In this document: positions 1,961-33,285 of the stretch, piece by piece | Layout of the letters: every line of letters begins with the position of its first letter | Position numbering within the stretch: the stretch's first letter is position 1 | Source: a virus | Strand: one strand, 5' to 3' | Virus record (IMG/VR): IMGVR_UViG_3300009481_000038 | Location: 1 to 36,938 of that record | Length of the DNA stretch: 36,938 nucleotides | Translations under genes and position numbers: made by a program | The notes under the pieces: model-generated | What the model was told of the DNA's origin: nothing | Database searches by the model: none | Seen by the model: the letters and a program-made list of their open reading frames with translations, nothing else

Positions 1961-3026
1961 AGTCTTTTAGTTCTGAGGGCAGTTTTTCTTTTATTAAGTC
2001 AATTGGGCATTTATACGCCATACTTAGATACGCATAAATAAACTTTTTTATTTTAAGTTCGTCTACGGGGCTATTTATGAATTGCACTGATTTCTTTATG
2101 TCTTCAATATTCCGACACTCGTAAGTGGCAGCGGAATAGTCTACTTTTCCTAGGGTGACAACTGGCTTAAGGTGAATTAGAGCCTCGAATCCCGCCCCCG
2201 AATTTATTGTTACGACACCTTTAGCTAAATGTATCAAATCATGGATAGACACATCGGAAACAATAGATACATTATTAAGAGCAGGAAGATCGATTAAGTT
2301 GTTGATTACTGCATTTGCATCTTGGTTTTCGAATGGGTGAGGTTTATAAATAATAGGGATATTAAATTTATCCAAGACAGAAAGAGCCGTAATCAGAGTG
2401 TTAACATATGCTGTTGGAACATCTCTCTTTACGCTAGGAGGCCTCATCGAACCTCTAATTTTGTGCTTTGGGGCAGGAAAATTTGTAAAATTAATAACTG
2501 AATCTCCCGCAACTTGACCGAGCACTAAAATAAAAGGCTGAGAGCCACAAACTTTCGTGAGATATCCAAGCCCTGCAAATTCTGGCTGTTCATATTTACT
2601 TGAATTTGATTCTACGATTTTCTCAAATAGGCGCTTGTGCATAGCCAAGGCATCGTCTTCGGAAACTTCATCAATTTTTAACAAGCTGTGGTCTTTAGCT
2701 ATAAAACTTGCACCTGAATATCCGTTTCTATCGCAAAGCGTCCAACCTCTAATTGGCGCACCCATAACACACCATACGTTATCACAAATTCCATCAAGAA
2801 ATTCGAATCTAGAATGCATGACTGGAACATCACGATTCCCATGCATAACGAGGCATAAAACGTTATCTGGCGAAGGTTCCGTTCTGCCAAAGTTTACCCC
2901 ATATTCTTTTATTATATTGTAGTCTCCAAACGCTTTTTTAGCTCGTGAGTAAAGCGCTTTTGCCTGACTGGAGTTTCTTTGATCTACAGCGGCCAGTATG
3001 ATGTTCTTCTTGTCCACATTTTTCAT
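1959..3026 (-). CDS. Capsule-polysaccharide-type glycosyltransferase (KpsC/KpsS-like)
   Basis: This 355-residue protein resembles the capsule synthesis family (Capsule_synth, KpsC/KpsS, Kdo-type transferases). Visible motifs are FILVLGQVAGDS at about 165-176, IIYKPHPFE at 225-233 (the KPHP signature) and NSGAGFEALIHLKPVVTLG at 275-293, corresponding to the family's S-x-x-GFEAL-x-x-x-KPV motif. Family members transfer sugars from nucleotide donors onto polysaccharide or lipid acceptors; donor and acceptor here are unknown. It overlaps the sulfotransferase gene by 4 nt and shares a run with a second glycosyltransferase, suggesting a coordinated glycan-modification set just downstream of the tail-fibre genes. 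Confidence 0.75.
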   Translation of the reverse strand: MKNVDKKNIILAAVDQRNSSQAKALYSRAKKAFGDYNIIKEYGVNFGRTEPSPDNVLCLVMHGNRDVPVMHSRFEFLDGICDNVWCVMGAPIRGWTLCDRNGYSGASFIAKDHSLLKIDEVSEDDALAMHKRLFEKIVESNSSKYEQPEFAGLGYLTKVCGSQPFILVLGQVAGDSVINFTNFPAPKHKIRGSMRPPSVKRDVPTAYVNTLITALSVLDKFNIPIIYKPHPFENQDANAVINNLIDLPALNNVSIVSDVSIHDLIHLAKGVVTINSGAGFEALIHLKPVVTLGKVDYSAATYECRNIEDIKKSVQFINSPVDELKIKKFIYAYLSMAYKCPIDLIKEKLPSELKD

Positions 3027-3691
3027 ATAAACGTGGAATATTTTTTAAAGTCTGGATCATTAAATAATCTTTCCTCCGTTTTTTCATGTATCTTGCCATT
3101 TTCCCTAAACCACTTGAAGCCTTTGTTATTGCTTACATTTTGTTTTTCTATTGGGGTATATTGAATTTCTAATTCAGTATTTATAAAATCTTGAAGATTT
3201 GAATGTTTAAATTCTTTAACGATTTTAACGTCACTAATATAGTCAGGTAAGATCCATAAATCTCTTAACGCTGTGTCTATGCATCTATGTATAAAAACAT
3301 CCATATCCCACTCATGAGAATCCACATTCAATGGGTTTTTGCCTTTCTCTAGGTAAACCTGTTTTGACCAACAATATAATGAAGTTATTAAATCTTCAGG
3401 TCTTCTTATGAAAGTAAAAGTAACCCAGCCTTTTTTATTAAATTCTAATATACTGTCTTTTGACCAAGCTATATGGTGATTATGTACGTAAGCTGGGCCT
3501 TCGTCATTAGAAATTTCTGACAGTTCTTCTTTAGTCCAATCTCTACCTTTATAAGTTTCAGGGATTCTTTTTATCCAAGAGTTGTATACTTTATAATTTG
3601 AGTCTACGAAAGCTTTGGTCTCTAGCCAACGAGTCACATACGAACCAGCGCATTTGCCAAAATGTACAAAAGCTATTCTATTGTCTTTCAT
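3023..3691 (-). CDS. Sulfotransferase-family protein
   Basis: This encodes 222 residues. The N-terminus contains a PAPS 5'-phosphosulfate-binding loop (FVHFGKCAGSY, about 8-18). A second block, FTFIRRPEDLITSLYCW (about 92-108), matches the 3'-phosphate site with its R-x-P and downstream Ser. These are the two defining motifs of the P-loop-like sulfotransferase family, which moves sulfate from PAPS to hydroxyls, often on carbohydrates. It overlaps genes on both sides by 4 nt (ATGA type), so it is translated with the glycosyltransferases. It is paralogous to the gene at 32189-33031. The acceptor is unknown; a fibre glycan or host surface glycan is an inference. Confidence 0.75.
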   Translation of the reverse strand: MKDNRIAFVHFGKCAGSYVTRWLETKAFVDSNYKVYNSWIKRIPETYKGRDWTKEELSEISNDEGPAYVHNHHIAWSKDSILEFNKKGWVTFTFIRRPEDLITSLYCWSKQVYLEKGKNPLNVDSHEWDMDVFIHRCIDTALRDLWILPDYISDVKIVKEFKHSNLQDFINTELEIQYTPIEKQNVSNNKGFKWFRENGKIHEKTEERLFNDPDFKKYSTFI

Positions 3692-8421: not shown

Positions 8422-13708
<5,287 letters not shown>

Positions 13709-14246: not shown

Positions 14247-15425
14247 TTAACCAAGAATTAGACCGCAAACTGCGCGACCATCGAGGCAGAGGCGACCCTC
14301 TTCGAGAGAGCCATAGAAGCCAGCCTTGTCGGAACGAGCAGCATACCACTGATCATCAGGAACGGCGGTGAAAGTACCACCAGTGTCAGCGTCACGGGCT
14401 ACGGGGCGTACAAACGCCTCACGGCCCAAGTCAACACCAACAAGAATTTGATGACTCGCGGTTGCGAAGTTAGAGATGCTGTTAGTAGATCCGTCGATTT
14501 GCGTGGCAGCAGTGCCAACGGCATCGAAGAATGTCTCAAACAACGCATTGTAACGTTGGCTCTTGCCAAGCTCAACCAACTCGTGGATGGCTACGCCGTA
14601 AATGCTCTCCATGCCAGCGGCATTGTAGATAGCCATACGAGCGTCATCCGGTAAGCTCTGAGCGTTAGCAGCAGTAGCTGCACTGTCAGTACGAATAGCG
14701 TTGTAAGCGAACTTACGAATCTGACCCTTAACTTCAGGAGACACGAACAAGTCGGTCATACCTTTAGCATTGTAGTCAGCGGGAGTACCACCAGCCCAAG
14801 AAGTGTTAACTCTTCTCATTCTGGTCATCAAGTCATTCAAGTCTTGAAGAACAAACTCGGCGGAAGCGCCAGTGTTGTTCGAAGTCAATACGTGACGAAG
14901 AGCACCAGAAGTGCTGGCAGCGTCAGAACGACCTTCCTTGGTTGCAGCTTCGGCAACAGCCTTCATAACTACAGACCAAGCATTTCTTTCTTGCTTGATG
15001 AGAACCTCTTGAGCCATGCGCTCAACAGCTTTGCTAACTACGTCAAGACGAGCCTTACGAGCGTACTTCTTGTGAAGATGAACGGCGCTATCTAAACGAT
15101 AGGTCATTACCTTCATTTCTTGTACGGGAACGTGAGCGTCTGAGCTAGGTAAGCCACCAGCCATGTTCTGAGACCACACACTGACATGTCCTTTATCAGT
15201 GTTGTAATAAAGGTCGAGAGGGTAACTAGGGTTATCGTCCTGATCGAATTCAGAATCAGTGTAAAGTGCGGCGGAAGTACCAGCCTCATTTACAACCTTC
15301 TGAACGACAGGGCCAATAAAAGCAGCGAAAGCTTCGCTGGCCTCACGAGACACATTTAAGTCTCTCGAACCCAAAGCCTTTACCAACTCCACCTGTTCGG
15401 GGGTATTTTTAAGCTTCAATTTCAT
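14247..15425 (-). CDS. Major capsid protein
   Basis: This encodes 392 residues. Evidence is positional and compositional: the gene is last in a protease/scaffold, decoration, capsid series and is followed by a strong terminator. The size fits, and the sequence has the expected organisation of an HK97-fold capsid: a helical N-terminal region, then an E-loop-like segment (LYYNTDKGHVSVWSQNMAGG), a long spine-like helix (ARLDVVSKAVERMAQEVLIKQERNAW) and a final beta-rich DQWYAARSDKAGFYGSLEEG stretch. GGATT precedes the ATG by about 8 nt as a Shine-Dalgarno sequence. The gene is visibly more GC-rich, with C-ending codons, than its neighbours, which fits high expression. Confidence 0.8.
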   Translation of the reverse strand: MKLKLKNTPEQVELVKALGSRDLNVSREASEAFAAFIGPVVQKVVNEAGTSAALYTDSEFDQDDNPSYPLDLYYNTDKGHVSVWSQNMAGGLPSSDAHVPVQEMKVMTYRLDSAVHLHKKYARKARLDVVSKAVERMAQEVLIKQERNAWSVVMKAVAEAATKEGRSDAASTSGALRHVLTSNNTGASAEFVLQDLNDLMTRMRRVNTSWAGGTPADYNAKGMTDLFVSPEVKGQIRKFAYNAIRTDSAATAANAQSLPDDARMAIYNAAGMESIYGVAIHELVELGKSQRYNALFETFFDAVGTAATQIDGSTNSISNFATASHQILVGVDLGREAFVRPVARDADTGGTFTAVPDDQWYAARSDKAGFYGSLEEGRLCLDGRAVCGLILG

Positions 15426-18178: not shown

Positions 18179-18211
18179 AAATTAAATAAAAACAATCAAT
18201 TTTAAATAAAA

Positions 18212-18237
18212 AAGCCCCCGTAATTAAACGAGGGCTT
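18212..18237 (-). terminator. Rho-independent terminator after the lysis/lipoprotein unit
   Basis: A GC-rich stem (AAGCCCCCG with the CGAGGGCTT arm, AT-rich loop) is followed on the minus strand by a T-rich run. It lies 24 nt after the small lipoprotein stop and separates it from the capsid unit. Confidence 0.8.
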
Positions 18238-18260
18238 AAAGAAGGTGATTTAATTTAGTT

Positions 18261-18455
18261 TTACTTCTTCTTTTCTTCGGTAGCTGCTACCCCAGCCTGA
18301 ACAAAAGGAAGGGTAACGCTCACCCCCTCTCCATTGGCTGATGCGGAAAGGTATCCATCATCGTTAGCCTTTGGTCCAAGGGTAACAGTGCTTGAGCAGC
18401 CAACGCCAAAAAAGGCGACTGCTGCAATTAACAATAGTGTCGGTTTATTTTTCAT
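18261..18455 (-). CDS. Small phage lipoprotein
   Basis: This encodes 64 residues: a signal sequence MKNKPTLLLIAAVAFFGVGC with a lipobox (GVGC, modified Cys20), then a short Ser/Gly/Val-rich mature region ending in EEKKK. It is probably exported and lipid-anchored in the host envelope. It follows the u-spanin-like gene and precedes the terminator, so it is last in the membrane/lysis cassette. It could be an o-spanin-like partner, a superinfection-exclusion lipoprotein or another envelope modifier; nothing in the mature sequence decides. Confidence 0.65.
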   Translation of the reverse strand: MKNKPTLLLIAAVAFFGVGCSSTVTLGPKANDDGYLSASANGEGVSVTLPFVQAGVAATEEKKK

Positions 18456-18523
18456 ATGATTAAATAAGCTAACTTAGCTCGCGGTCAACGTAACAAACGT
18501 ATAAAATGAAATCAAGAAAAAAA

Positions 18524-19402
18524 CTAAAGAGTTTTTCTTTTGCGTGAAGTCTTCTTCTTAGCGGTCTTTTTAACAGCTTTTTTGGCTGCTTTTTTGGGCA
18601 CAGATTTCTTCGCCGCCTTTTTAGGGGCTGCTTTTTTCACTGTCTTTTTAGGGGCAGCTTTCTTTTTAGGCCTAATTTTTTTAGCAGGTTTTTTGGCAAA
18701 TGGGTTACGCTCTTCATTTTTAAGCCTCATTTGCTTTAGAATGTCATAGGTTATGTAAGCTATAATTATAATCAGCAAAGCTAAAAAGTAATACAGGAAT
18801 AACTCTGTCCAATTAATCTTCATGTTTTTATCTTGTTGCTGCTTGAGTAGCTTTTTAGACTCTTCTTCTTTTTTTTCTACAGAATCTTTTTTAGATTGAT
18901 CTTCTGGATCTTCTTCAAAATCTGGAGCAGGAACCAAATTAATTAAGTCATCAACCTTATCTTTATTTTCTATAGATGGCAAGAGTGGAATCTTGGCCTT
19001 AGAAAAGTCTAATTGTGATAATTCCAGATTAGCTTTCTCCAACTCTAATTTAAAATTATCAGTTTTTGGTTCTGCAATTTTTATATCGGGTAAATCTGGT
19101 TTAGACTTATGGGCCGGAATTTTTATCTTATCGTAAGGCTGGGGCAACGCTTCTTCCCAAGATGTGACGTTGTCTTTTTCTGGTGCAATGTTACCATTAG
19201 ATATATTTTCGGTAGATTTAATTTCAGGCTTTTTAGGGCTAGGATTACCTTTTGGTATCAAAGCGCCGCCTTTTTTTATTTCTTCAATTGTTTTAGGCTT
19301 AATTATTTTACCAGCAGAGTCTTCCCCTACCCTAACGCCGCCAGTCTTACAACCGATTAGGAAAAATACAAAAGTGCAAATAAATAAAATGTTAGGCTTC
19401 AA
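18524..19402 (-). CDS. Unimolecular-spanin-like lipoprotein with histone H1-like tail
   Basis: This encodes 292 residues. A TTG start at 19402 is preferred: AGGAGG lies 4 nt upstream and the frame opens directly with a lipoprotein signal (KPNILFICTFVFFLIGC, Cys18). Residues 20-195 are hydrophilic, Pro/Lys/Glu-rich and coiled-coil-prone; 198-222 (WTELFLYYFLALLIIIIAYI) is a membrane segment; 237-292 is a Lys/Ala/Pro tail (KKAAPKKTVKKAAPKKAAKK type) like histone H1 C-termini. Lipobox plus C-terminal membrane segment is the u-spanin layout, which fuses inner and outer membranes in Gram-negative lysis. The cytoplasmic lysine tail is unusual and could bind DNA. It overlaps the upstream small membrane gene by 11 nt. 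Confidence 0.6.
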   Translation of the reverse strand: MKPNILFICTFVFFLIGCKTGGVRVGEDSAGKIIKPKTIEEIKKGGALIPKGNPSPKKPEIKSTENISNGNIAPEKDNVTSWEEALPQPYDKIKIPAHKSKPDLPDIKIAEPKTDNFKLELEKANLELSQLDFSKAKIPLLPSIENKDKVDDLINLVPAPDFEEDPEDQSKKDSVEKKEEESKKLLKQQQDKNMKINWTELFLYYFLALLIIIIAYITYDILKQMRLKNEERNPFAKKPAKKIRPKKKAAPKKTVKKAAPKKAAKKSVPKKAAKKAVKKTAKKKTSRKRKTL

Positions 19403-19646
19403 GACCCCTCCTACTTTCTTCTTCTATTTTTTTTAATACTTCTAAGAGTTTTTCATATGACTTATAAAGTTTTGTTGCTTCATAAGTTATAATGGTATTA
19501 ACCGCTTCTAAATGTTTTTTCTCCTCTTTCAACAAAGAGTTAGCCTGATAGCTTAAAATGTTGATAAAAATAGAGATAGCTAAAGAAAAAGATAAAACCA
19601 TCTTTATCGTAAAGTCTCTCATATTTTTTTTAGATTGATCTGTCAT
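19392..19646 (-). CDS. Small membrane protein with periplasmic/cytoplasmic coiled coil
   Basis: This encodes 84 residues: a basic N-terminus, one membrane segment at about 12-33 (FTIKMVLSFSLAISIFINIL), then a charged helix to the end (NSLLKEEKKHLEAVN, KSYEKLLEVLKKIEEESRRG). This resembles inner-membrane spanins or small holin/antiholin proteins. It is translationally coupled on both sides: its ATG overlaps the upstream stop (TAATG) and its end overlaps the u-spanin-like start. A lysis role is inferred from size, topology and neighbours. Confidence 0.55.
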   Translation of the reverse strand: MTDQSKKNMRDFTIKMVLSFSLAISIFINILSYQANSLLKEEKKHLEAVNTIITYEATKLYKSYEKLLEVLKKIEEESRRGLEA

Positions 19647-20083
19647 CAGGTAGATCCTTTCGCTGCCGCATTACCAAAGTAGAAGCCAACTATCGCACTT
19701 AAAGTTTGCCTTACTTCTGGAATCATTAAGTATCCATCTAACTCAACAAAAGTTATTTCTTTGCCTCCACCGAACAAGCCAAAGAACCAAGTAGGGTTTT
19801 CAGTCTCTACCTCTACTATGGTAGAATATCCAAGTATAGATAAAATAAACGGCGCTGCTATAACGCCAAATAATATAGAACAAACAATCAATCTCCTCAC
19901 CCATTTACCTACATCAATGGGCACTCTCTTAGCGGCTCTATCAGCACTATCATCTTGAGCCTCCTTCATCTTAAGGGCGTTTTGGAACATCTCATGACGC
20001 TCTTTAGCTCTTTCAGCCATATAACGAAATATAAAGCCTACGATGCTTCCCCCAATCATGGTTATTAATTCCATAGACAACAT
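19646..20083 (-). CDS. Holin-like membrane protein
   Basis: This encodes 145 residues from ATG 20083; an alternative ATG is at 20074. Three membrane segments are visible: about 5-21 (ELITMIGGSIVGFIFRY), 64-86 (RLIVCSILFGVIAAPFILSILGY) and 126-142 (QTLSAIVGFYFGNAA), with a charged helix between the first two. Small proteins with two to three membrane segments next to spanin-like genes are usually holins, which permeabilise the inner membrane at lysis. It is the first gene of the membrane cassette, downstream of a GTGTAAT motif and of the tubulin-gene terminator. Assignment rests on topology and context only. Confidence 0.55.
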   Translation of the reverse strand: MLSMELITMIGGSIVGFIFRYMAERAKERHEMFQNALKMKEAQDDSADRAAKRVPIDVGKWVRRLIVCSILFGVIAAPFILSILGYSTIVEVETENPTWFFGLFGGGKEITFVELDGYLMIPEVRQTLSAIVGFYFGNAAAKGST

Positions 20084-20093
20084 TCTATATAAA

Positions 20094-20102
20094 ATTACAC
20101 TA
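20094..20102 (-). promoter_or_regulatory. GTGTAAT motif heading the lysis cassette
   Basis: The minus strand reads TAGTGTAAT, 10 nt before the ATG at 20083. It directly abuts the T run of the tubulin-gene terminator, so termination of one unit and initiation of the next are packed together. Confidence 0.45.
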
Positions 20103-20107
20103 AAAAA

Positions 20108-20131
20108 GCCGCACAGTGAAAACTGTACGGC
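20108..20131 (-). terminator. Rho-independent terminator after the tubulin-family gene
   Basis: A stem GCCGcACAGT with ACTGTaCGGC (one C-A mismatch) and a GAAA tetraloop is followed on the minus strand by TTTTTTA. It lies 22 nt after the GTPase stop codon. Confidence 0.85.
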
Positions 20132-20153
20132 CTTGGAGAAACAAAGCAGAGTC

Positions 20154-21332
20154 CTACTTTATCGAAATATCTCCTAATTTTGCCAGTTCTTGCAGCTTAT
20201 CTTTCGGACGACCTAATCCGCCAATAGAAGTATAAACAATTAAATTAGGCTTATCGCCAATATAAATACCTCTATGAACTACATTTCCGGGCCTGAGCAT
20301 TCTGCAAAGCTGATCAAACGCTTGATCTAAGGCGGATTGCGGAATATTATCCAATTGCTCTTTACCACCCACAACAACGGCCCCAGCATGACTGCCAGAA
20401 GACAAATCAATTCCTCCAGATAAGAGTCCACTCTTGAAGTTATCTCTTACTGCTCTTGAAATGCTAACTGGGTCTTGCCATTCTTTTACGGGCGCTGCTC
20501 CAAACACCATTAAACCGGAGTCTAGGATAGTTTTGTAGTCGTTTGCGTCAAATGAAGTAAACGAACTATCCCTCGCAGCGGTAAGATTAAACAAGTGAAA
20601 GAGACCAGCCATACTTGCATTGGCAGTTTGCCAAAAATTGGATACAACTAAGTTAGGGTAAACCTTCCCAATTCTTTCATTATCGATTACAACTAAAGGA
20701 GAAACTTTGCCTTCCTCAACTAAGTTGTAAACTTCGTTTAAGCACTTGTGTGCATTAGCGTTAACTTTTTTTCCTTCGGAGGCTTTAGGAAGAGCTAAGA
20801 TAACACCAACTTTATCAGTTGGAGCTTTTATTGTTTCTTGAAGCTCTCTTGCTGCGTCAACCAAACTTGTGACAGTACCAGATCCAGTTCCGCCGCCAGC
20901 ACCAGCACAAACAAAGATTCTATCAAGGGTTTCGCCAAACGAATACCTCATAAAATCTACAACGTCTTCTTTTTTACCAGCGAAAACTTTTTTAGCAAAT
21001 GATGGATCTTTACCTGCGCCACCTTCACCAATGCAAAGTTTGTGAGGCACTTTCTTGATGGTGTTTAAGTCTTGCTGCGCTGTATTTAGTACAGCTACTT
21101 TTCTGTAACCAAAATCATAAAAAGTTTCAGCTATCCTTGAACCACCTTGCCCAGCGCCAATAAACGCGAACTTAAAAGCAGTCTCAACTTCGTCCTTGAT
21201 TTCTTTTTCGGCAACCTGCTCCTCTTCTGGTTCTGGAATGGGAATATCAGGCATAGAAATATCAAAGCCGCCGGGATTCATATATTCACTAGCGGTTTGG
21301 CCCACTGGATTTTCTTGATTTTCTTCACTCAT
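20154..21332 (-). CDS. Tubulin/FtsZ-superfamily GTPase
   Basis: This encodes 392 residues. A 50-residue acidic, Pro-rich N-terminal extension precedes FIGAGQGGSRIAETF (T1 loop, 57-71), then the tubulin signature GAGGGTGSG (144-152), LPKASEG (T5-like, 181-187) and VVIDNERIG (nucleotide-contact region, 214-222). SFDANDYKTIL (260-270) lies where the FtsZ T7 loop is expected; Asp262 and Asp265 keep the D-x-x-D catalytic spacing although the usual Asn is Ser. It should therefore bind and probably hydrolyse GTP and may polymerise. Phage relatives (PhuZ, TubZ) centre DNA or segregate plasmids. It has its own GTGTAAT motif and terminator, a single-gene unit between tail and lysis units. Whether it is closer to FtsZ, CetZ, PhuZ or TubZ cannot be settled by eye. 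Confidence 0.9.
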   Translation of the reverse strand: MSEENQENPVGQTASEYMNPGGFDISMPDIPIPEPEEEQVAEKEIKDEVETAFKFAFIGAGQGGSRIAETFYDFGYRKVAVLNTAQQDLNTIKKVPHKLCIGEGGAGKDPSFAKKVFAGKKEDVVDFMRYSFGETLDRIFVCAGAGGGTGSGTVTSLVDAARELQETIKAPTDKVGVILALPKASEGKKVNANAHKCLNEVYNLVEEGKVSPLVVIDNERIGKVYPNLVVSNFWQTANASMAGLFHLFNLTAARDSSFTSFDANDYKTILDSGLMVFGAAPVKEWQDPVSISRAVRDNFKSGLLSGGIDLSSGSHAGAVVVGGKEQLDNIPQSALDQAFDQLCRMLRPGNVVHRGIYIGDKPNLIVYTSIGGLGRPKDKLQELAKLGDISIK

Positions 21333-21345
21333 AATATTTTCTTAA

Positions 21346-21354
21346 ATTACACAT
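21346..21354 (-). promoter_or_regulatory. GTGTAAT motif upstream of the tubulin-family gene
   Basis: The minus strand reads ATGTGTAAT, 13 nt before the ATG at 21332 and directly after the stop of the tail-tube candidate. Together with the terminator at 20108-20131 it defines a single-gene unit. Confidence 0.45.
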
Positions 21355-22659
21355 TTAAAAGTTAAAACCTGAGAAAGCAGTGCCCGTTTCAGTGATTTTA
21401 CCACTAATGAACAATCCTTTGCCAGATACGTTATCCGCAACGTCAGTCACGAAACTCATGCCCAAAAAAGCCCTATCATTAACTTGGTTTGAGAAATCGA
21501 TTGAGTCAACATTAGATTGAACCAAATCGTACTGCAATACTGTATATGGCTCAGTTTCTCCAGAGCAAGCGACTTGCCTATTTCTAGCTTTTATAGTTAC
21601 GTCGTATTTATGATCTTTATTAAATATGTTTCTTAATTCACCTGTTTTAGATGTGGAAACTAAAGCCGATATTGTAGAATTTACTATTATCGGATAGCGC
21701 ACAGGTCGATCAATTGGAATAGCGTACCCCAAGCCTATGTACTCTCGCCTTTCGAAAGATACATCGAATGTCGCTTCCTGAAGATGAAATGTTCCGAAGT
21801 CAAATCCTATATCTTCTACATCTTTTTGATTATCTCCATATCCAGTAGCTTTTATCTCCATTATTAGGTCAGAGCATAAAAGAGGTGTGCTTGGATTTTC
21901 TTGGTTTTCAAATAATCCGATTTTGCTTTTGCCATGAACCTCATCTTCCATTACTGGAATCTTGAATATGTTTTGATTTACATTTGTATATCCAGTGGGT
22001 TCTATGGCGGGTATATTTCCAGATCCGCTAGTGTGATAACTAACATTGTCGGCTGTATAAGAAATTGAACTTCTTATCAAATCATTTACAGCAAGCGTGG
22101 TTGAGTAAGAGTTTAAGTAGCAGTCTCCAAAAGCTAAAACTGAATACTCTTCTAAATCTGATTCTTTACCGCTTACTAAATCTATACCTTTTTTACCGTT
22201 AACAAAAAATAAATTTCTTTTGTCTCTCTTTTTATAAGGCCAATTAGATTCGGAATACGCAGCGGATTCTCCCGTCGAGGTAAAACCTTCAAATACAAAA
22301 ACGCCCGTATTATAATCATAATAAGGTGAACCTTCGGAGCCCGTTTGGAAATTAGGGTTAAAACCCATCCTTACCTCGTTCCTTAAATCATATACATAGT
22401 AATCAAAATTTAACTCGACACTTGGCGGAGTTATTTGAACAAAGTCTACAAGCTCTCTTCTTCCTAGCTCTGAAACTTGCTCTCTGTTCGAGGATATAGA
22501 ATAGCTAAAAGACTGAAGACCATTTAATTGTTTCAGCGCGTTTGTCTGTGAAGAATCGCCCGTTAAATAACCATCACTATTAATAAAGTGATATCCGGAC
22601 GATGGCGCTGGGCCAACATACAGTCCTTGCTCGTTAGACTTGATTGTATATTTAGGCAT
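21355..22659 (-). CDS. Putative tail tube (major tail) protein
   Basis: This encodes 434 residues. After a short lead comes LNGLQSFSYSISSNREQVSELG, then VDFVQITPPSVELNFDYYVYDLRNE. The remainder is beta-rich, with paired strands and a FGDCYLNSYSTTLAVNDLIRSSISYTADN block, a layout common in phage tail-tube proteins. A polymerising structural protein is likely but the identification is by pattern, not a match. Its ATG lies inside the last codons of the portal gene (8-nt overlap), so it is co-translated with the portal. Confidence 0.55.
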   Translation of the reverse strand: MPKYTIKSNEQGLYVGPAPSSGYHFINSDGYLTGDSSQTNALKQLNGLQSFSYSISSNREQVSELGRRELVDFVQITPPSVELNFDYYVYDLRNEVRMGFNPNFQTGSEGSPYYDYNTGVFVFEGFTSTGESAAYSESNWPYKKRDKRNLFFVNGKKGIDLVSGKESDLEEYSVLAFGDCYLNSYSTTLAVNDLIRSSISYTADNVSYHTSGSGNIPAIEPTGYTNVNQNIFKIPVMEDEVHGKSKIGLFENQENPSTPLLCSDLIMEIKATGYGDNQKDVEDIGFDFGTFHLQEATFDVSFERREYIGLGYAIPIDRPVRYPIIVNSTISALVSTSKTGELRNIFNKDHKYDVTIKARNRQVACSGETEPYTVLQYDLVQSNVDSIDFSNQVNDRAFLGMSFVTDVADNVSGKGLFISGKITETGTAFSGFNF

Positions 22660-24595
22660 CCTTTACCTCTACCTCACTAGCATAAAGAATACTTGCAAGG
22701 TAAGAGTCAACTTGATGCTCACAAGCTATGTCGTGAATTCTATTGACTGCTTGAGGATTAGTATCTACAGGAGACTTTAGATACTTCCTAATGACACCTA
22801 CCTTATTCCAATTTTCAGACTTTTCATTAGCGATAATGATTTCGCAGATTTCCTCTGCCACCTCATTTTGTTTCTCGTCTAGCTTTTCGATCTTGTGAAG
22901 TTTCTTAACTTGATCTTTCACTTTCTCTACAAGTCTAGAAGCAAGAACCATATTATCTTTTATATTTTTCAGGCTGTAATTTGCGCGAGATTGTCTTTCT
23001 CCAATTTTACCCTGTTGCCTATTTGGCTGCTCAGTGCTTATGTCTGGAGGTCTGCCATTCTTATCTTCACCTTTGGAAGCTCCAGCGCCTTTGCCTCCAA
23101 TTAGAGGCTCGTAATAACCTTTATTCCTTAACTCTTTGAATTTTTTCTGAGACTCTAAGGAGGATTCATTATCGGGCAATTTATTATTTTGGATAGCCTC
23201 AAACCCCTCTTCTGGAGTCAGAATACCAAGTTCCATGAGTCTGCTATAGATTCTGTGAGTATTATAATTATTCTTTAACGGGATGTCTTCGAATACTGGA
23301 TTTGGGTAAGACTTAAACCCTAAAGATTTAGAAATCCTTTTGACTTCAGGCTTCAGGAACTTATTAACAAAAGCCTCACGAGCTTGTTTTAATCTAGCCA
23401 TGAAGACCTCCACCTTTGTTTGTTGATTGGCGAATTTTTCACCACCCACTAAAACATTGTTAAGACCCTCGTTTATGTCTCTGTCTATTACTTCGTACTT
23501 TCTAGGATCTAAAAGACTAGCAATATCAGGAATTACAAATTTTGCATCAGTAGTATAGTCAGAAATAAGAACCCTGCCTACAGATTCATTCTCGAAAAGC
23601 TTTTGCATAGCTTCCAAGTTCTTTTGATTTACTCCGCCTTTTTCAGGCTCTGCACCCATCGTAACTAATAAAATAGCTTGATGTGTAGTTCTGGATATAG
23701 CCATATCCATCTTACGCATCTCAGCCTTTGCGTTTATAGATTCTAAAACCGGGAAGCCCATCGGAACCGCTAGTGGTTCGTAGTCTTGCTTCTTGTAAAA
23801 AACGGCTGATGTTTTTTCTGGATTAAGTTCTATTTGGACATGATTATTTTTCTTGTCTAAAACCTCTTTGCGCTTGTCTGCTGGAAGAGCTCTTAAAACC
23901 TCCTCATCTTCCGCTGTCTTTGGATGCCTTAATCTTTCAAGCTCGTAGTCGCTTAAGTTCTTGTAAAATTTAGCTTTTGCGAAAGATATATTTCCCCCTG
24001 CTTGAATATCTGCTGGGTTTAAAATAATGTATCGAGACGGTAAGATTACGCTCCCATCTTCAGCCAGCGAAGTGGCAAATCCTTTGTTTAAGCCAAAAGA
24101 TCTAGCGATTTTAATTACGTCGGCTTTTCTTATTTTATTGTCAAATCTATGTATGAATACATTCCCAGATCTAAAATATTCTCTGAAAAATTTATCTTGT
24201 AGATCTTCTATATCAAACTTCTCAAACAGGGCGCTAAAGAAATCTCTAGACTTTTTTGTTCCTCCAGATAAGTAAATGTCCGAGATTGAGAACTCGGTCA
24301 TTAGGTCAATAACATTCCTAAAAACAGCGAAATTATAATAAGCCTTTTGACATAGTATAACTACGTCTCTAACATTAATATTTCTCGTGCTGCCATAATC
24401 GCCAGACTGACTGTACCTAAATGGAGTTAGACCCTCATCTATATTCCTGAACCTGTCAGTTCTCTCTATGTACGAAGAAGCGTTTCTGCGGGTTCTGGTA
24501 GTTTTTGCCGCTTTAGAATAGGCAAGGGACTCTTCCATTCCCGCCATTAAAGGCTCCGTATCAGGATTTTCAGGTTTTTTGCGTGGTCTTGGCAT
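22652..24595 (-). CDS. Portal protein
   Basis: This encodes 647 residues. Length, position directly after the large terminase and the sequence layout fit a portal: FRNVIDLMTEFSISDIYLSGG and FFREYFRSGNVFIHRFDNK in the wing/stem approach, KMDMAISRTTHQAILLVTMG in the stem region, and a hydrophilic C-terminus with GYYEPLIGGKGAGASKG followed by a helical crown. Twelve copies form the DNA entry channel at one capsid vertex and bind the terminase. A GTGTAAT motif stands 13 nt before its ATG. No frameshift or missing segment is seen. Confidence 0.8.
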   Translation of the reverse strand: MPRPRKKPENPDTEPLMAGMEESLAYSKAAKTTRTRRNASSYIERTDRFRNIDEGLTPFRYSQSGDYGSTRNINVRDVVILCQKAYYNFAVFRNVIDLMTEFSISDIYLSGGTKKSRDFFSALFEKFDIEDLQDKFFREYFRSGNVFIHRFDNKIRKADVIKIARSFGLNKGFATSLAEDGSVILPSRYIILNPADIQAGGNISFAKAKFYKNLSDYELERLRHPKTAEDEEVLRALPADKRKEVLDKKNNHVQIELNPEKTSAVFYKKQDYEPLAVPMGFPVLESINAKAEMRKMDMAISRTTHQAILLVTMGAEPEKGGVNQKNLEAMQKLFENESVGRVLISDYTTDAKFVIPDIASLLDPRKYEVIDRDINEGLNNVLVGGEKFANQQTKVEVFMARLKQAREAFVNKFLKPEVKRISKSLGFKSYPNPVFEDIPLKNNYNTHRIYSRLMELGILTPEEGFEAIQNNKLPDNESSLESQKKFKELRNKGYYEPLIGGKGAGASKGEDKNGRPPDISTEQPNRQQGKIGERQSRANYSLKNIKDNMVLASRLVEKVKDQVKKLHKIEKLDEKQNEVAEEICEIIIANEKSENWNKVGVIRKYLKSPVDTNPQAVNRIHDIACEHQVDSYLASILYASEVEVKDA

Positions 24596-24608
24596 GATTT
24601 CTATTAGA

Positions 24609-24617
24609 ATTACACAT
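24609..24617 (-). promoter_or_regulatory. GTGTAAT motif upstream of the portal gene
   Basis: The minus strand reads ATGTGTAAT, 13 nt before the portal ATG at 24595 and touching the TAA stop of the large terminase gene. Confidence 0.45.
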
Positions 24618-26446
24618 TATTTTATGACAATTGGAGTAAAAGTTGATTGAACTTGTTCTTCTTTTACGGTTTTCGAGTCATAATAACATTTGGTCGCCCA
24701 ATTAGCGAGCATAAGTGTCGTGTAATTATCCTTTCTCGCCCTGAGAGCAGATGTACTTCTTTTTAAATGTTGGGGCAAGTCAAAAGTTTGATTGCCTTTA
24801 GCGGTGGATTTAACTTCAACTAAGGCGCATTGCTTTTTTGTTTGATGTATTAAAGAATCCTGAGTCTCAATAAAATCTAAAATGTTATTTTCGTTAACTA
24901 ATTTCAAATCTACGCCAGCCGAAGAATACTTGTTGAATGCTGTAGTGTTTGCGACGGTTTTAGAGCCAAACCATATTCTTTTGTGATCTATATTGCTTTG
25001 TAGATACTCGTTAGCTTTTCTCAACCACTCGCTTGTAAAGACCTGCTTAAAGCAAATATATCCTGAATCTTGGTTGTGCTCTCTTTTAAATTTGCGTATT
25101 TCTTTTTGATAGTCAACTCCCTCCTTATTACTGTCAAAATTCATAAAGTTTATTTTGATGCCGTCTTTCCTAAAATGCTCTGATTCATTTGCGCCGTCTA
25201 TAAATTGATACCCTGCATTATCAATGCATATTAATTGTATGTTAAAGTTAGACATCAAATGGTAAAGATACTTAATATGATCTTTAAGATTTCCACCCGC
25301 CACGGCGTAGCTATGCACTAAAGTGCCAGAACTTGTTTCGTCATCTAGCTCTAAAAGAGACATGGCAAAATAGTCAGAGCTAGGGCTATTTGAAAATGAT
25401 GGGTCAATCCCTAGAATATACTTCTTGTCTTTGTCTCCAACTATTTTTGTCGTCGGGCTTTCACCATCGGGTATGGTACACAGATGCATTTTTTTCGCAC
25501 TGTAATAAGAATCTGACCCATCAGTAAATTGAGCGCAATACTCCCTCAAGAATGATGAATGAGAAGCTCCTCCATTTTGAGCCTCGTCAATAATTGTTCT
25601 ATCTATCATTTCTTCAGGAAGAGAATCATAAGCCATTTGAGATATGAAATATCTACCGTCAGTCTTTTCTTTCGAGGTAATTTTATCTGTCCACTCTTGA
25701 TAAGTTTTATATAAATTTTCAAACGTGTACGACGCAGAGGAAAGAGCTATCATCTTGGAGGTGTTTTCAAAAACCATCCTATCCTCTTCTTTCATTCTGC
25801 CTTCTTTAATAAGTTTATCCTCTATCTCTTTTACCTCTAATCTTTCTTTCATGTTCTGAGGAGCAACCAAGAAAGGCATTAATACATTATTGATAATATC
25901 TTCCGGTATCAAAAGATACTCATCGAGTACTAGAATGTCGGCACGGAAACCACGAATCTTTTCACCGTTTAAGGGAATTGCGGTTATTGTTCCGTCATTG
26001 ATTTTCCATTCGAACTGGTCATTGCGTTTTGATTTTGCTCCGAATGCTTGCGCTAATAATTCAGCGCCCTTGCTTTCAACAAGCTTTTCTAAATTATTAA
26101 AAATAAAACGCGCAGTACGGAAAGTCGGACCAGCTATAAGTATTTTTGTTCCGGGGTTAAATATGCATTGCAGAAAACAGAATACAGAGGCAATGAAAGT
26201 TTTCCCGCAACCACGACCCCAAACACACATTGAAAAATTGCTGTTCAACATTCCTTTAAGAGTTATCTCTTGGAATGGGGCAAGCTTTATCCCTGATATA
26301 AGTTCAGTGGTAATTCCTAAGTTACCTCTTAAGAACTTGGCTAGACTGATCTTAGCTTGCTTGTCGGTAAGTTCACCTTTTAAATTTAAAAGCTCCTGAT
26401 TTAAATCTGGTAAACTATTTTGATATTTTTCTGGCGCGTACCACAT
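24617..26446 (-). CDS. terL: Terminase large subunit (packaging ATPase/nuclease)
   Basis: This encodes 609 residues. The ATPase half has a Walker A motif VWGRGCGKT (75-83), a Walker B ILVLDE (171-176) and a coupling-type SSAS motif (236-239). The nuclease half has the RNase H-like LGIDPSFSNSPSSDYF (Asp348) and LICIDNAG (Asp409), acidic residues expected to bind metal. The protein docks on the portal, pumps DNA into proheads and cuts the concatemer. Its ATG overlaps the upstream nuclease gene's stop as TAATG, so packaging genes are co-translated. The length is normal and no residues appear missing. Confidence 0.92.
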   Translation of the reverse strand: MWYAPEKYQNSLPDLNQELLNLKGELTDKQAKISLAKFLRGNLGITTELISGIKLAPFQEITLKGMLNSNFSMCVWGRGCGKTFIASVFCFLQCIFNPGTKILIAGPTFRTARFIFNNLEKLVESKGAELLAQAFGAKSKRNDQFEWKINDGTITAIPLNGEKIRGFRADILVLDEYLLIPEDIINNVLMPFLVAPQNMKERLEVKEIEDKLIKEGRMKEEDRMVFENTSKMIALSSASYTFENLYKTYQEWTDKITSKEKTDGRYFISQMAYDSLPEEMIDRTIIDEAQNGGASHSSFLREYCAQFTDGSDSYYSAKKMHLCTIPDGESPTTKIVGDKDKKYILGIDPSFSNSPSSDYFAMSLLELDDETSSGTLVHSYAVAGGNLKDHIKYLYHLMSNFNIQLICIDNAGYQFIDGANESEHFRKDGIKINFMNFDSNKEGVDYQKEIRKFKREHNQDSGYICFKQVFTSEWLRKANEYLQSNIDHKRIWFGSKTVANTTAFNKYSSAGVDLKLVNENNILDFIETQDSLIHQTKKQCALVEVKSTAKGNQTFDLPQHLKRSTSALRARKDNYTTLMLANWATKCYYDSKTVKEEQVQSTFTPIVIK

Positions 26447-27399: not shown

Positions 27400-28489
27400 T
27401 TAAAACCTCGTCTTCTGTCAAACCCATTATCCTAGCTTTTATTTCGTCCATAGAAGCTAGTTTCTGCGTCTCTTCTTTCAGCGACTCTTTTCTTAACTCA
27501 GCTAAGTGGATCATTTTTTCTCTGCTTTCTTCCTCTTTCCACATTTGGACTAAATTTAAGATACTAGCGTTCTCTTTAACTTGTTTGCTCAGGCGGTCAC
27601 TTCTTTTTACTTTTAAATCGTTAAGAAGCTTTTGCTGCCGAGTAACACATTGGTTATACTCTGTTCTCGCGGTGTTGTTAGCTTCGATCAAAGTCATCGG
27701 TATTCTATTGCCTTGCTCAACTTCTTGATCGATTTGCATTTGTATCATTTGAATAGTTTCTTGGATACTCGATGAAATAATTATTTCAGTACATAGGACT
27801 ATATATTGATCAACCTCTTCTTGAGTTAGATCTGACTTATCATTCGTATAACGAATAAAACTAGACTCGAACAATTCTCTATCTGTTTCAGATTGATACG
27901 TATTGATTTGATGATTAAACCTATAAGTATTCATGTAACCGATAAGGGAAGTTACTTCTTTTTTCTGCGAAGGCTTAATTTTATCTTTGTTGATCTTTTC
28001 AGCTACATAAGTGTTTACTTTAAAAATCATAGAAGGAATTGTCTTAGGGGCTTTGTATTCTCCTACAGCAACGTCTTCGTGTTCTGGTTGAGCATAAACC
28101 AATTGAGGGTCTAAGGTTTTTATGTGATCTAAAACTGTCCTTGCTTCTTGAGATAAAGCAGTAAGCTTATCGTCATTAAAAAGAGCCCTAGTTATTTCTA
28201 GAGGCTTCATTGTTAATACGTTGTTTTGTATGAAATCTTTTTGGTCTTCGTTTAAGTCTTTAACGCCTTTGGCTTTGTATTCATGAGCGCCTCTGGCTTT
28301 TAGCGATCTTGACGCTAGAAACGCCTTTACAGCCTTCCCTTCCTTGCTTCTGCCGTCTGCATTCTCAACGTCAGGGAAAGCCTCTCTAACAAGCTCTAGG
28401 AGCGAAGGAGGGTCATTCTCTTGACTATTCCAAAGATCAATTATTTGTTTCTGTTGATCTTCTGTAAGTTCTAAAGCTTTCTTACTCAT
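27392..28489 (-). CDS. Candidate terminase small subunit, helical
   Basis: This encodes 365 residues, almost wholly helical. The N-terminus (LTEDQQKQIIDLWNSQENDPPSLLELVREAFPD, then a GRSKEGKAVKAFLASRSLKARG helix pair) looks like a DNA-binding helix-turn-helix unit. The centre and C-terminus contain long coiled coils (VTRQQKLLNDLKVKRSDRLSKQ, EEESREKMIHLAELRKESLKEE). It lies two genes before TerL in a fully overlapping run, where small terminases normally lie. No family match is claimed; the role is from position and architecture. It overlaps the sigma-like gene by 4 nt and the nuclease gene by 8 nt. Confidence 0.5.
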   Translation of the reverse strand: MSKKALELTEDQQKQIIDLWNSQENDPPSLLELVREAFPDVENADGRSKEGKAVKAFLASRSLKARGAHEYKAKGVKDLNEDQKDFIQNNVLTMKPLEITRALFNDDKLTALSQEARTVLDHIKTLDPQLVYAQPEHEDVAVGEYKAPKTIPSMIFKVNTYVAEKINKDKIKPSQKKEVTSLIGYMNTYRFNHQINTYQSETDRELFESSFIRYTNDKSDLTQEEVDQYIVLCTEIIISSSIQETIQMIQMQIDQEVEQGNRIPMTLIEANNTARTEYNQCVTRQQKLLNDLKVKRSDRLSKQVKENASILNLVQMWKEEESREKMIHLAELRKESLKEETQKLASMDEIKARIMGLTEDEVLNG

Positions 28490-29190
28490 AGGATATCTAT
28501 ATCGTTTTCGGATAAAACTTTTTTAACTTTTTCTATAATTGTTTTTTTTATATTTTTAAGTTGTTTGTATCCGGGCGACCTATTTTTTTCATTTGTCTTA
28601 TACCCCATTAATCTAGAGACCTCATTTTCTGTTTTAAATTCTATATATAATAACCTGTATACTTTCCACTCTATAGGTTTCAGAATGGTCTTCATCTTCT
28701 GATGCAAAGCTTCTGCATTCCTTTCTAAATTGCAAGAATCCGACTGCATGGTGTGGACTTCTTGCCTGTGATTTTCTAATGAAACTGGTAGTTTAGTATC
28801 GTGAGCTCTCTTTTTTGTTTTTTCCCAGTTAGCATATAAAGGACATTCGCTAGATTGCTTTCCGTATATGGAGCACATATCAAGCCCCTCAGAGGCATCG
28901 CACTTTAAACAAGGACGACTAAAACTTCCGTAGTTGTTCCTTATTAAATTTTTTATTTGATTTGATATAATCCTATTAAGCCAAGGAGCCAGAGGTTTTT
29001 CTGGGTCGTAAAGATGCCATTTTTTGTATATGTGAATTCTTAAAATTTGAGAGACATCATCAAAGTCCATCCAAGACAGGATGGTTAGATTCCACTTTCC
29101 TCTTCTTTTGAGGATTTCGGTATCTATTTTTTCTATAACGTCTTCAAATTTTGGTTTTGTTTTCTTGGATTTCTTTTTCTTACGAGGCAC
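28486..29190 (-). CDS. RNA polymerase sigma-factor-like protein
   Basis: This encodes 234 residues from GTG 29190, whose G overlaps the upstream stop (TAGTG). After a Lys-rich N-terminus, residues 40-87 resemble sigma-70 region 2 (MDFDDVSQILRIHIYKKWHLYDPEKPLAPWL, then NRIISNQIKNLIRN; compare dDlxQexxxxxwkkxxxydPekpfxxWlxxixxN). Residues 170-226 look like region 4 (LKPIEWKVYRLLYIEFKTENEVSRLMGY). Between them lies a Cys cluster (Cys94, Cys97, Cys106, Cys116) that may bind zinc. It probably redirects host RNA polymerase to phage promoters, perhaps the GTGTAAT motif, an inference. It is followed by the packaging genes. Confidence 0.7.
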   Translation of the reverse strand: MPRKKKKSKKTKPKFEDVIEKIDTEILKRRGKWNLTILSWMDFDDVSQILRIHIYKKWHLYDPEKPLAPWLNRIISNQIKNLIRNNYGSFSRPCLKCDASEGLDMCSIYGKQSSECPLYANWEKTKKRAHDTKLPVSLENHRQEVHTMQSDSCNLERNAEALHQKMKTILKPIEWKVYRLLYIEFKTENEVSRLMGYKTNEKNRSPGYKQLKNIKKTIIEKVKKVLSENDIDIL

Positions 29191-29822: not shown

Positions 29823-30899
29823 TTAAGATCGGCAGAAGTCAAGTAGTCTTTCATAGCATTGCCTAAAATCTAGAGGCATATAGCTAATATTTAGCTTGTC
29901 TTCGCACACCCTCTTACAAACATCTTTTTTCCCTGTCCAATAATTACTTAAAGCAAACTCTAACGGTATTTTATAATCCCTAGAAGCTTGATCTACGAAT
30001 AGTATATCTTCTGTCGCAGGTTTTTTCATGTACTCTAGCGAAAGGGCGTAAGAAGCCGTATAAAGCTCTTTTCTTCTTATATAATTGATTACTCTGTATG
30101 CAGCCTCAAATCTAGAAGGGCGGTACTTCATCGCTTTTATATACAGACCTAGAGGAAAGTCCATGCTTTCTGGGTCTTTGCTAATACACTCTGCTTCCCT
30201 TAACATCGAGATATACGTTTCTTGGTCCCAGCCTTCCATCTGAGCGCGTTTTCCATACGTATCCCTAGCTTCGTCCCGTTGGCCATTACATTCGTAAGAT
30301 TGAGCCAAATAAAACATATCTCTGGGGTTATTTGCATTGTCCATAATTGATTGCTCTAAAAGTCTTACGTCTTCTTGATTTTTATAGGAGTGCCTAGACC
30401 CATCTGCGAAATGAACTAAAGAAATTAAATCCGTCACCCCTTCTCCATTGTCTTGGTCGCTCACTATATATTCATGGGTTACTCCTTCGTACCTCCAATC
30501 AAGATCTCCTCTTACTAATAGTTTTTGCCTAAAATAGTTTACCCCTTCGTATTTTAGTAAATAAGAGGTGGGCTTCATTGAATCGTTCGAAAGAGAATCT
30601 CTAAAGTTTCCTTGGTTTACTTGCAGCGTCATATCTGCATCTAAAAGAATAATATAATCAGCCTTATTACGGCAAAGCTTCATTAGCTCGGATCGGTTAT
30701 AGCCAAAGTTCTTCCACTCTCTATCGTGAAGCTCGCCGGGAATTCCTTGAAGTTTTTCGGTGATAATTTGCTTGGTATTATCAGTCGATCCAGTATCGCA
30801 TATCACCCAGTAATCAATATGGTCCTTAAACGAATCAATGCATCTTGAGATGACACTTTCTTCGTTTTTAACTATTAATGCGGCACAAAGCGTACTCAT
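29823..30899 (-). CDS. Family 2-type glycosyltransferase
   Basis: This encodes 358 residues. Residues 1-100 have the GT2 hallmarks ALIVKNEESVISRCIDSF (7-24), DYWVICDTGSTDNTKQI (29-45) and DYIILLDADMTL (81-92, DAD metal/donor site). Residues 165-340 look like TPR-like helical repeats (DMFYLAQSYECNGQRDEARDTY), a fusion seen in SPBc2- and UDP-sugar-type transferases. It probably adds a sugar to a protein or glycan acceptor that is not identifiable here. It is separate from the other two glycosyltransferases (1959-4932) and stands apart from its neighbours by short gaps. Confidence 0.8.
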   Translation of the reverse strand: MSTLCAALIVKNEESVISRCIDSFKDHIDYWVICDTGSTDNTKQIITEKLQGIPGELHDREWKNFGYNRSELMKLCRNKADYIILLDADMTLQVNQGNFRDSLSNDSMKPTSYLLKYEGVNYFRQKLLVRGDLDWRYEGVTHEYIVSDQDNGEGVTDLISLVHFADGSRHSYKNQEDVRLLEQSIMDNANNPRDMFYLAQSYECNGQRDEARDTYGKRAQMEGWDQETYISMLREAECISKDPESMDFPLGLYIKAMKYRPSRFEAAYRVINYIRRKELYTASYALSLEYMKKPATEDILFVDQASRDYKIPLEFALSNYWTGKKDVCKRVCEDKLNISYMPLDFRQCYERLLDFCRS

Positions 30900-32186: not shown

Positions 32187-32195
32187 ATTTACACT
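32187..32195 (-). promoter_or_regulatory. GTGTAAA motif upstream of the PhoH-like gene
   Basis: The minus strand reads AGTGTAAAT, 11 nt before the ATG at 32176. It overlaps the stop region of the upstream sulfotransferase gene. Confidence 0.4.
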
Positions 32196-33031
32196 GATAA
32201 AAGTCTTTTTGACTTTTCTACTATTTTTTTATAAATCTCGGTTTTAAAATGATTTTTTATTTTTTCCTGATTTAATTTAGATATTTCTCCTGTCTCACAG
32301 TAATGTGAGTACCCCTTGTTCTCACTCGTGAGAAGTTTTTCTTTTTTCGAGTCTCGATATCCATCTACATTTGGTATTTTTCCTGAAAAATCAATATTTA
32401 AGTACTTTTTGAGAAAAAAACTAAAATTGTCATTTGAGTATTCGCAAATAAAATCTATGTCATTCCAAAAAGGAGGGTAAGTTTTAGACTTGTTTCTCAG
32501 CAAGGCAATAGAGATAAACTCATCAAGAGTAATTTTTAATATGACCGACCTTGGTATTCCCCAAAGAGTCAAGTTCCACTGATCTGTTATGCACATACTT
32601 GAATGGGAATAGCCGTCTGGAGTATAATTTTCATAATTTTTTAAATAAAAGTAATAAGAACAAAGAATTTCACCATATGGTCTCACAAAACTGAATGTTT
32701 TCCATCCTGCGTTTCTAAAATCGTAAAATGGCGTTGCTTTTGCTTCAGATCCAAAGCCGTCATACCAATTATTGATATGATTGTGTACAAAAGCGCTTCC
32801 TCCTCGGCCTTTTTCGTATTCCAAAATTTTTGATAGCTCTTCGGGCTTATAATCTCTTTTATCTTTTAATTTAAAATCCTGCTCACACAACTCTGTATGG
32901 TTATCATAGACTCTCCAACCCGAATGGTCATCGTAAAATTCATCAGATTTATTTAGATAAAAAGTATGAGTTAAATATATCCTTGCAAATGTGCCAGCGC
33001 ATTTAGGGGTGTGGACAAATGCAAGTTTCAT
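32189..33031 (-). CDS. Sulfotransferase-family protein, paralogue of 3023-3691
   Basis: This encodes 280 residues from ATG 33031, which overlaps the upstream lipoprotein stop as TAATG; a longer frame to 33097 would use TTG and overlap it. The PAPS 5'-phosphosulfate loop is LAFVHTPKCAGTF (3-15) and the 3'-phosphate block is FSFVRPYGEILCSYYF (113-128). AFVHNHINNWY and the spacing of all blocks mirror the gene at 3023-3691. It is larger in the C-terminal half. It probably sulfates a carbohydrate; acceptor unknown. Confidence 0.75.
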   Translation of the reverse strand: MKLAFVHTPKCAGTFARIYLTHTFYLNKSDEFYDDHSGWRVYDNHTELCEQDFKLKDKRDYKPEELSKILEYEKGRGGSAFVHNHINNWYDGFGSEAKATPFYDFRNAGWKTFSFVRPYGEILCSYYFYLKNYENYTPDGYSHSSMCITDQWNLTLWGIPRSVILKITLDEFISIALLRNKSKTYPPFWNDIDFICEYSNDNFSFFLKKYLNIDFSGKIPNVDGYRDSKKEKLLTSENKGYSHYCETGEISKLNQEKIKNHFKTEIYKKIVEKSKRLLSV

Positions 33032-33285
33032 TACCTGAGAAGAATCTTCCTTACTATCAACAATACAATCAAGACTATAATGAAGATCACTATACAATTA
33101 AATGGCTTTATCACGCCACCTTTTTCCCACTCTTGGGGTAAAATTCGTATACCTTCGGGGCTTTTTTCTTTTTTTTCTATTTTTGGGCCAGATTTAGTGA
33201 GACCAATCCCATCGCTAACCTTTTTTAGCACAGAGCACGATGTGAATAGCACCAAAGATAAAATTAATGCCACGATTTTTCTCAT
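33031..33285 (-). CDS. Small lipoprotein with C-terminal membrane segment (u-spanin-like layout)
   Basis: This encodes 84 residues: signal MRKIVALILSLVLFTSC with lipobox (Cys17), a 45-residue Lys/Glu/Pro-rich linker, then a membrane segment at about 62-79 (FNCIVIFIIVLIVLLIV). Lipobox plus C-terminal membrane segment is the u-spanin order, but the linker looks too short to span a periplasm, so an envelope-modifying or exclusion role is also possible. It is the first gene of the leftward arm, 7 nt downstream of a GTGTAAT motif. Confidence 0.55.
   Translation of the reverse strand: MRKIVALILSLVLFTSCSVLKKVSDGIGLTKSGPKIEKKEKSPEGIRILPQEWEKGGVIKPFNCIVIFIIVLIVLLIVRKILLR

Follow-up and report, generated by a model that had tools for sequence, protein, structure and literature searches.

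A portal-linked tubulin family with a conserved N-terminal peptide in phages with siphovirus-type tail genes

Hundreds of uncultured viral contigs with siphovirus-type tail genes encode, within the head-gene operon, a GTPase of the tubulin/FtsZ superfamily whose gene is stably kept there and evolves slowly. Because this gene usually follows the portal gene directly and its product bears a conserved peptide, our analysis suggests cytoskeleton building during virion assembly in many long-tailed phages of ordinary appearance. If the tubulin polymerises, phages that form no nucleus may often organise virion assembly in space. The conserved peptide is a direct starting point for identifying the cargo. 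Most of what is known of phage cytoskeletons comes from nucleus-forming jumbo phages, along with a few plasmid-like prophages. Phage tubulins as such are already known and an uncharacterised "FtsZ" of an uncultured phage already stands in the viral structure library; for a portal-linked or portal-operon tubulin family with a docking peptide in siphovirus-type phages, no description was found in the open-access literature. The gene was analysed in IMG/VR record IMGVR_UViG_3300009481_000038, whose whole stretch of 36,938 nucleotides is called the window in the following.

Fold and nucleotide site of the tubulin

The gene and its nucleotide-site loops are located as follows:
20154..21332, minus strand: tubulin/FtsZ-superfamily GTPase, 392 aa, ATG start (Pfam, PDB and PHROG matches; AlphaFold; structural matches)
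21135..21158, minus strand: T1 loop GAGQGGSR, residues 59-66 (G59, G61, Q62, G64 and R66 invariant in 39 relatives)
20877..20903, minus strand: T4 tubulin signature GAGGGTGSG, residues 144-152 (G146-148, G150 and G152 invariant in 39 relatives)
20538..20552, minus strand: T7 loop FDAND, F261-D265, with D262 and D265 in the catalytic position (F261, D262 and D265 invariant in 39 relatives)

The span 20108-21354 that had been marked in the first-pass annotation consists of this open reading frame together with the flanking GTGTAAT and most of the terminator. The protein matches the Pfam families Tubulin (PF00091, E 5e-13) and Tubulin_2 (6.6e-8), both beyond the gathering cut-off, and its best PDB match in phmmer is Bacillus TubZ/RepX 4ei7 (2e-13); the family profile scores 8e-21 against Bacillus TubZ/RepX. 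An AlphaFold model based on an alignment of 39 relatives (pLDDT 86.6) shows the full fold, in which the GTPase domain and the activation domain are joined by helix H7 (residues 230-253). In the structural comparison all 724 of 724 aligned chains reached Z >= 8, with CetZ2 (35.9) and TubZ (35.8) tied at the top and FtsZ at about 30-31, the latter at approximately 22% identity across the fold. At the C-terminus (...LAKLGDISIK) the protein forms a short helix and the chain stops six residues past it.

The first-pass annotation had read a tubulin signature, a T1-type GAGQGG loop and a T7 D-x-x-D pair from the letters, and all three are present with their key residues invariant. The possible flaw that the catalytic loop might not align was checked as well, and the T7 FDAND does align with FDASE of TubZ and VDFAD of FtsZ. 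The modelled fold and the predicted GTP site make it well supported that the window protein is a true member of the tubulin/FtsZ superfamily. Its GTP site and T7 aspartates appear intact, and with the nucleotide-site and T7 residues invariant in the 39 relatives the earlier prediction of a working GTPase is probably right.

Linkage of the tubulin to the portal gene

Genes in and near the head block of the window are:
24617..26446, minus strand: terminase large subunit (Pfam Terminase_6N 1.7e-8, PHROG 4.6e-23)
22652..24595, minus strand: portal protein, 647 aa, usual 5' neighbour of the tubulin (weak PHROG portal match; almost all tubulin loci show TerL, portal and tubulin in this order)
21355..22659, minus strand: 434-aa tail-tube-fold protein between portal and tubulin in the clade of the window (AlphaFold, Foldseek)
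14247..15425, minus strand: probable major capsid protein, 392 aa (sub-threshold SU10_MCP match, 7.5e-4)
28486..29190, minus strand: sigma-70-region-2 protein, conserved in the block (Pfam Sigma70_r2 1.7e-7)

In nearly all loci the order is terminase, portal, tubulin, followed by protease/scaffold-like, head and capsid genes. The tubulin starts within approximately 20 nt of the portal stop codon in 62 of 76 loci, including 12 in which the two genes overlap, and therefore translational coupling of portal and tubulin is likely. Exceptions are one locus (L151), in which the tubulin precedes the portal gene, and another (L246), in which it lies away from the portal block. The latter is a 47%-identical tubulin on a MAG contig (4445-5662, minus strand) with no portal gene nearby; its neighbours, named from reading the open reading frames, are ClpB-like ATPase, DNA-polymerase-III-alpha-like and glycosyltransferase-like genes.

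In the window the block runs terminase, portal, tail-tube paralogue, tubulin and, further on, the capsid gene, and throughout the clade of the window the tail-tube-fold gene of about 1.3 kb separates portal from tubulin. The first-pass annotation had placed the tubulin between a tail-tube candidate and a lysis cassette. On the tail-tube side this is borne out, as the model of the 21355-22659 product (pLDDT 66) has a siphovirus tail-tube fold and finds its best Foldseek matches among siphophage major tail proteins (E 8e-12). On the other side the genes 19646-20083 and 19392-19646 encode small membrane-type proteins, which leaves a lysis cassette at 19392-20083 plausible but unproven. In many relatives without the tubulin, the gene next to the portal belongs to the tail-tube-fold family, and a paralogue of the 434-aa protein often fills this slot (e.g., L120, L136, L155).

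Some further observations were made on these contigs. On the contig of locus L027 (G004:C1:25465-27296) the terminase large subunit is split into two frames overlapping near residue 428, which may be a frameshift, programmed or not, or an assembly error. The window itself encodes a 1632-aa collagen-like protein of GPTGPTG repeats, a probable fibre (8422-13320, minus strand), as well as a glycosyltransferase family 2 gene (29823-30899, minus strand) and two similar sulfotransferase-like proteins with an AFVHxxKCAGT-like start (3023-3691 and 32189-33097, both minus strand), for which surface-sugar modification is possible.

Promoter-like element and terminator

The candidate expression signals around the tubulin are:
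24609..24615, minus strand: GTGTAAT ahead of the portal gene (30 of 57 loci have the element before the portal)
21346..21352, minus strand: GTGTAAT promoter-like element of the tubulin (top-ranked upstream 7-mer in the window and close relatives)
20105..20134, minus strand: intrinsic terminator after the tubulin (13-pair stem, 20134-20105, then a T run)
20094..20100, minus strand: GTGTAAT ahead of a 145-aa membrane-type gene (motif scan)

For the promoter-element search all 7-mers were ranked by how enriched they are in the stretch 3-40 nt ahead of ORF starts. GTGTAAT ranks first in the window set and in the set of loci with a separated tubulin, while the portal-adjacent set has AGTGTAA, which is GTGTAAT shifted by one base, in first place and GTGTAAT in third. 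Upstream of genes lie 5 of 7 occurrences in the window, 15 of 18 in the separated set and 20 of 37 in the portal-adjacent set, and none of 209 permuted heptamers matched these counts. The window sites, all on the minus strand, are 33299-33293, 24615-24609, 21352-21346, 20100-20094, 18176-18170 and 13725-13719. The form GTGTAA[TC] precedes a 128-aa fibre-module gene in 23 of 26 cases and the portal gene at the frequency given above; it was found before the terminase large subunit in 0 of 46 and before the sigma-like gene in 0 of 28 cases. Before the tubulin it occurs in 12 loci, only where the tubulin is separated from the portal.

This pattern points to GTGTAAT as a probable late promoter used throughout the phage group, and the sigma-70-region-2 protein perhaps reads it. 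The element is strongly enriched upstream of genes and stands at the start of portal and fibre operons; late expression of the tubulin is therefore probable throughout the family, in agreement with the late context proposed at first pass. In one locus (L058, IMGVR_UViG_3300035204_001665, 10004-11161) the tubulin has moved beside the tail-tip gene J. This tubulin is 76% identical to that of the window, the capsid protein only 53%, and the relocated gene keeps GTGTAAT at -14, so that horizontal transfer together with the promoter element is likely. What is retained looks like late expression, not portal adjacency.

The GTGTAAT directly upstream and the rho-independent terminator directly downstream had both been noted correctly, and 0 of 365 shuffled downstream sequences gave a terminator under a stricter pattern. 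The isolated unit deduced from them holds for the window but not for the family, in which most tubulins adjoin or overlap the portal gene and GTGTAAT is phage-wide. Because most relatives have the tubulin behind the portal and the terminator is essentially confined to the close clade of the window (locus L002 belongs to this separated clade), the transcription unit of its own is a local, derived layout and says little on function.

Distribution and evolution of the family

With the family alignment as query, tubulin relatives were found on at least 289 viral contigs, and among the first 61 loci identity to the window tubulin ranges over 52-100%. The same alignment gave no tubulin relative in 84,980 species genomes, a scan that reaches only close relatives, as Pfam later gave the 47%-identical MAG homologue. 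In these searches the family is restricted to phages. The nearest relatives carry the lambda-type tail-tip genes J, I and L, which by gene content makes the carriers siphovirus-type phages; their contigs reach up to 162 kb. Relatives of the portal were met in Flavobacteriales and Neomarinimicrobiota MAGs, a statement on contig binning and not on the host.

In the superfamily tree the window tubulin family forms its own clade outside FtsZ (100/99) and PhuZ (100/100). Plasmid TubZ and phage G come out as its sister group (82/98); since the deep branches are long, this join is tentative. The phylogeny against FtsZ, CetZ, TubZ and PhuZ that had been proposed thus places the family apart from host FtsZ, with CetZ represented by one partial sequence only. 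That the gene is a host FtsZ, brought in by contamination or a mis-joined contig, had been named as a possible flaw and has next to no probability: the same gene order recurs in dozens of independent contigs, the scan of genome contigs gave no relative, and the window tubulin scores 64.8 bits with the NCBIfam ftsZ equivalog TIGR00065, whose cut-off is 295.2. We regard this origin as refuted.

To count presence and absence, the major capsid gene served as an independent anchor. The tubulin is present in 31 of 66 capsid-anchored loci, with 5 changes on the capsid tree, and in 9 of 80 portal-anchored loci; a portal tree that oversamples tubulin loci gave 6 changes. A search elsewhere in 16 tubulin-less contigs, which are partial, found no tubulin. 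The presence of the tubulin is ancient but patchy and, because many related phages do without it, the protein is useful but not indispensable and capsid assembly does not require it. Where present, it is more conserved than portal, capsid and scaffold proteins and less than the terminase (mean identity 0.64 against 0.56 for the portal, 0.65 against 0.62 for the major capsid protein), with a dN/dS of about 0.02 that is rough, as dS is saturated.

These data bear on the idea that the protein acts without filaments, as a GTPase or chaperone that helps to assemble the portal or procapsid. It agrees with the almost obligate coupling of tubulin start and portal stop in most relatives and with the tubulin distances, which track those of the portal (r 0.81) and co-vary with portal and protease/scaffold genes alike (r about 0.81). 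However, the tubulin is missing from close relatives that share the portal and capsid genes, which weakens this explanation. In known tubulins the T7 residues act across the filament interface, where they complete hydrolysis, and the invariance of the T7 aspartates here favours polymerisation; we consider a non-filament role quite improbable.

A conserved peptide in the N-terminal tail

Ahead of the GTPase domain lies a tail of approximately 50 residues, mostly of low pLDDT, whose length and sequence vary except for one peptide:
21234..21263, minus strand: linear motif D-I-S-M-P-D-I-P-I-P, residues 24-33, conserved within the disordered N-terminal tail (motif counts; low pLDDT)

The conserved pattern is D-[IL]-x-[LMIV]-P-[DEN]-[ILM]-[PL]-[IMLV]-P. 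Its core P-D-I-P-x-P is found in 76 of 80 tubulins, the remaining four having recognisable variants, and in none of the other ORFs (0 in 894,122 residues). The peptide is kept even in the most divergent tubulins, namely those of L151 and of the MAG contig L246 (PDIPLP). No significant N-terminal extension is described for phiKZ TubZ, and the TubZ proteins of Bacillus and Clostridium recruit their cofactors via a C-terminal tail (PMC3678025); a conserved recruiting tail at the N-terminus would therefore be a new arrangement among tubulins. Within the terminase-to-capsid block no family of neighbouring genes shares its pattern of occurrence with the tubulin, and for this reason the putative partner of the peptide should probably be sought among universal phage proteins, host proteins and the products of genes located elsewhere.

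The peptide also bears on interference with host division, in which a late FtsZ-like protein would co-assemble with the Z ring or titrate its partners. Tubulin and FtsZ share a superfamily, the core D-I-P recalls the C-terminal D-I-P-A-F-L of E. coli FtsZ, and phage inhibitors of FtsZ exist, such as T7 Gp0.4 (PMC13423816). Yet the peptide is N-terminal and without the F-L-R half, identity to FtsZ over the fold is only about 22%, a poison would not need intact GTP hydrolysis residues, and portal-adjacent late expression comes late for blocking division. We judge this role unlikely.

A late filament as the favoured explanation

The explanation we favour, tentatively and at somewhat under an even chance, is a late phage-encoded cytomotive filament that uses its N-terminal tail to dock an assembly-stage cargo or anchor. 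It builds on the modelled fold, the intact nucleotide site and T7 aspartates, the portal linkage, the promoter context and the conserved peptide. With the late-type, promoter-like GTGTAAT element ahead of the operon the tubulin would be made during virion assembly and, by analogy with known tubulins, would polymerise with GTP into a filament that may treadmill or pulse like those of TubZ and PhuZ. The peptide might then dock a universal assembly-stage phage component, such as portal or procapsid, or else a membrane or host anchor, and the filament would position procapsids, packaging sites or new virions within the infected cell. The cargo role is the conjectural part of this scheme. From gene order alone, a capsid role cannot be proved. 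Against the filament stand the patchy presence described above for capsid- and portal-anchored loci, and the divergent copies off the portal block (L246) or ahead of the portal (L151).

Comparison with known tubulins

The TubZ/RepX proteins of Bacillus plasmids (4ei7, 2xka) provide the best PDB sequence match, share first place in structural Z and have the T5 LP-x-x-x-E and T7 FD-x-x-[DE] patterns in common with the window tubulin. They differ in that identity is 20-28%, the C-terminal recruiting tail is nearly missing from the window tubulin, and the latter is a late portal-linked phage gene with an N-terminal docking tail. In DNA segregation of the TubRZC type, the filament would move replicating or pseudolysogenic phage DNA. 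The nearest sequence relatives, plasmid TubZ/RepX and phage G gp138, speak for such a function, and TubZ of phage c-st is cited as a partition system in PMC7824862. The surroundings argue otherwise: no tubC iterons were found near the tubulin, only coding or chance repeats in 18200-24700, and no DNA-binding family of the TubR helix-turn-helix type co-occurs next to it, a comparison that short, diverged or distant genes could escape. Instead of replication genes, the portal and a late-type promoter are what the gene is linked to, and the tail with which TubZ recruits cofactors (PMC3678025) is reduced to six residues after the last helix. Segregation has a low probability, and the missing iterons together with the want of a co-occurring DNA-binding neighbour speak against membership in TubRZC.

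Phage G gp138 of Bacillus, a putative FtsZ-like protein, is the only sequence match from an isolate phage (28% identity over 63%), but it sits among small metabolic genes, not head genes. The best viral structure match, A0A6J5RW92 of an uncultured Caudovirales phage (E 2.5e-33, 26% identity), carries the automatic name "FtsZ cell division GTPase" only, and no published function or context was found for it. Archaeal CetZ, the top structural match together with TubZ, is cellular and shows no CetZ-specific link in the tree, where one partial sequence represents it. The C-terminal conserved peptide that follows the linker in FtsZ is not found in the window tubulin, and PADLOC gave no match.

PhuZ of the phiKZ-like nucleus-forming jumbo phages is likewise a phage-encoded tubulin, and late in infection procapsids reportedly travel along its treadmilling filaments (PMC8314001). 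Positioning capsids, suggested at first pass as a distinct use, would consequently not be new for a phage tubulin. Membership in PhuZ was rejected, as its fully supported clade (100/100) leaves the window family out; the phages that carry this family have lambda-like siphovirus tail tips. A search for chimallin gave no match in 8 relatives, which are partial contigs, and missed one of two control records. PhuZ procapsid transport therefore serves as a working analogue and not as a relative. It is conceivable, if rather doubtful, that a widespread family of siphovirus-type phages without a known phage nucleus operates a portal-coupled filament and uses P-D-I-P-x-P to hold procapsids, or the site of packaging, on it, an independent late capsid-handling cytoskeleton distinct from both the PhuZ spindle and TubRZC.
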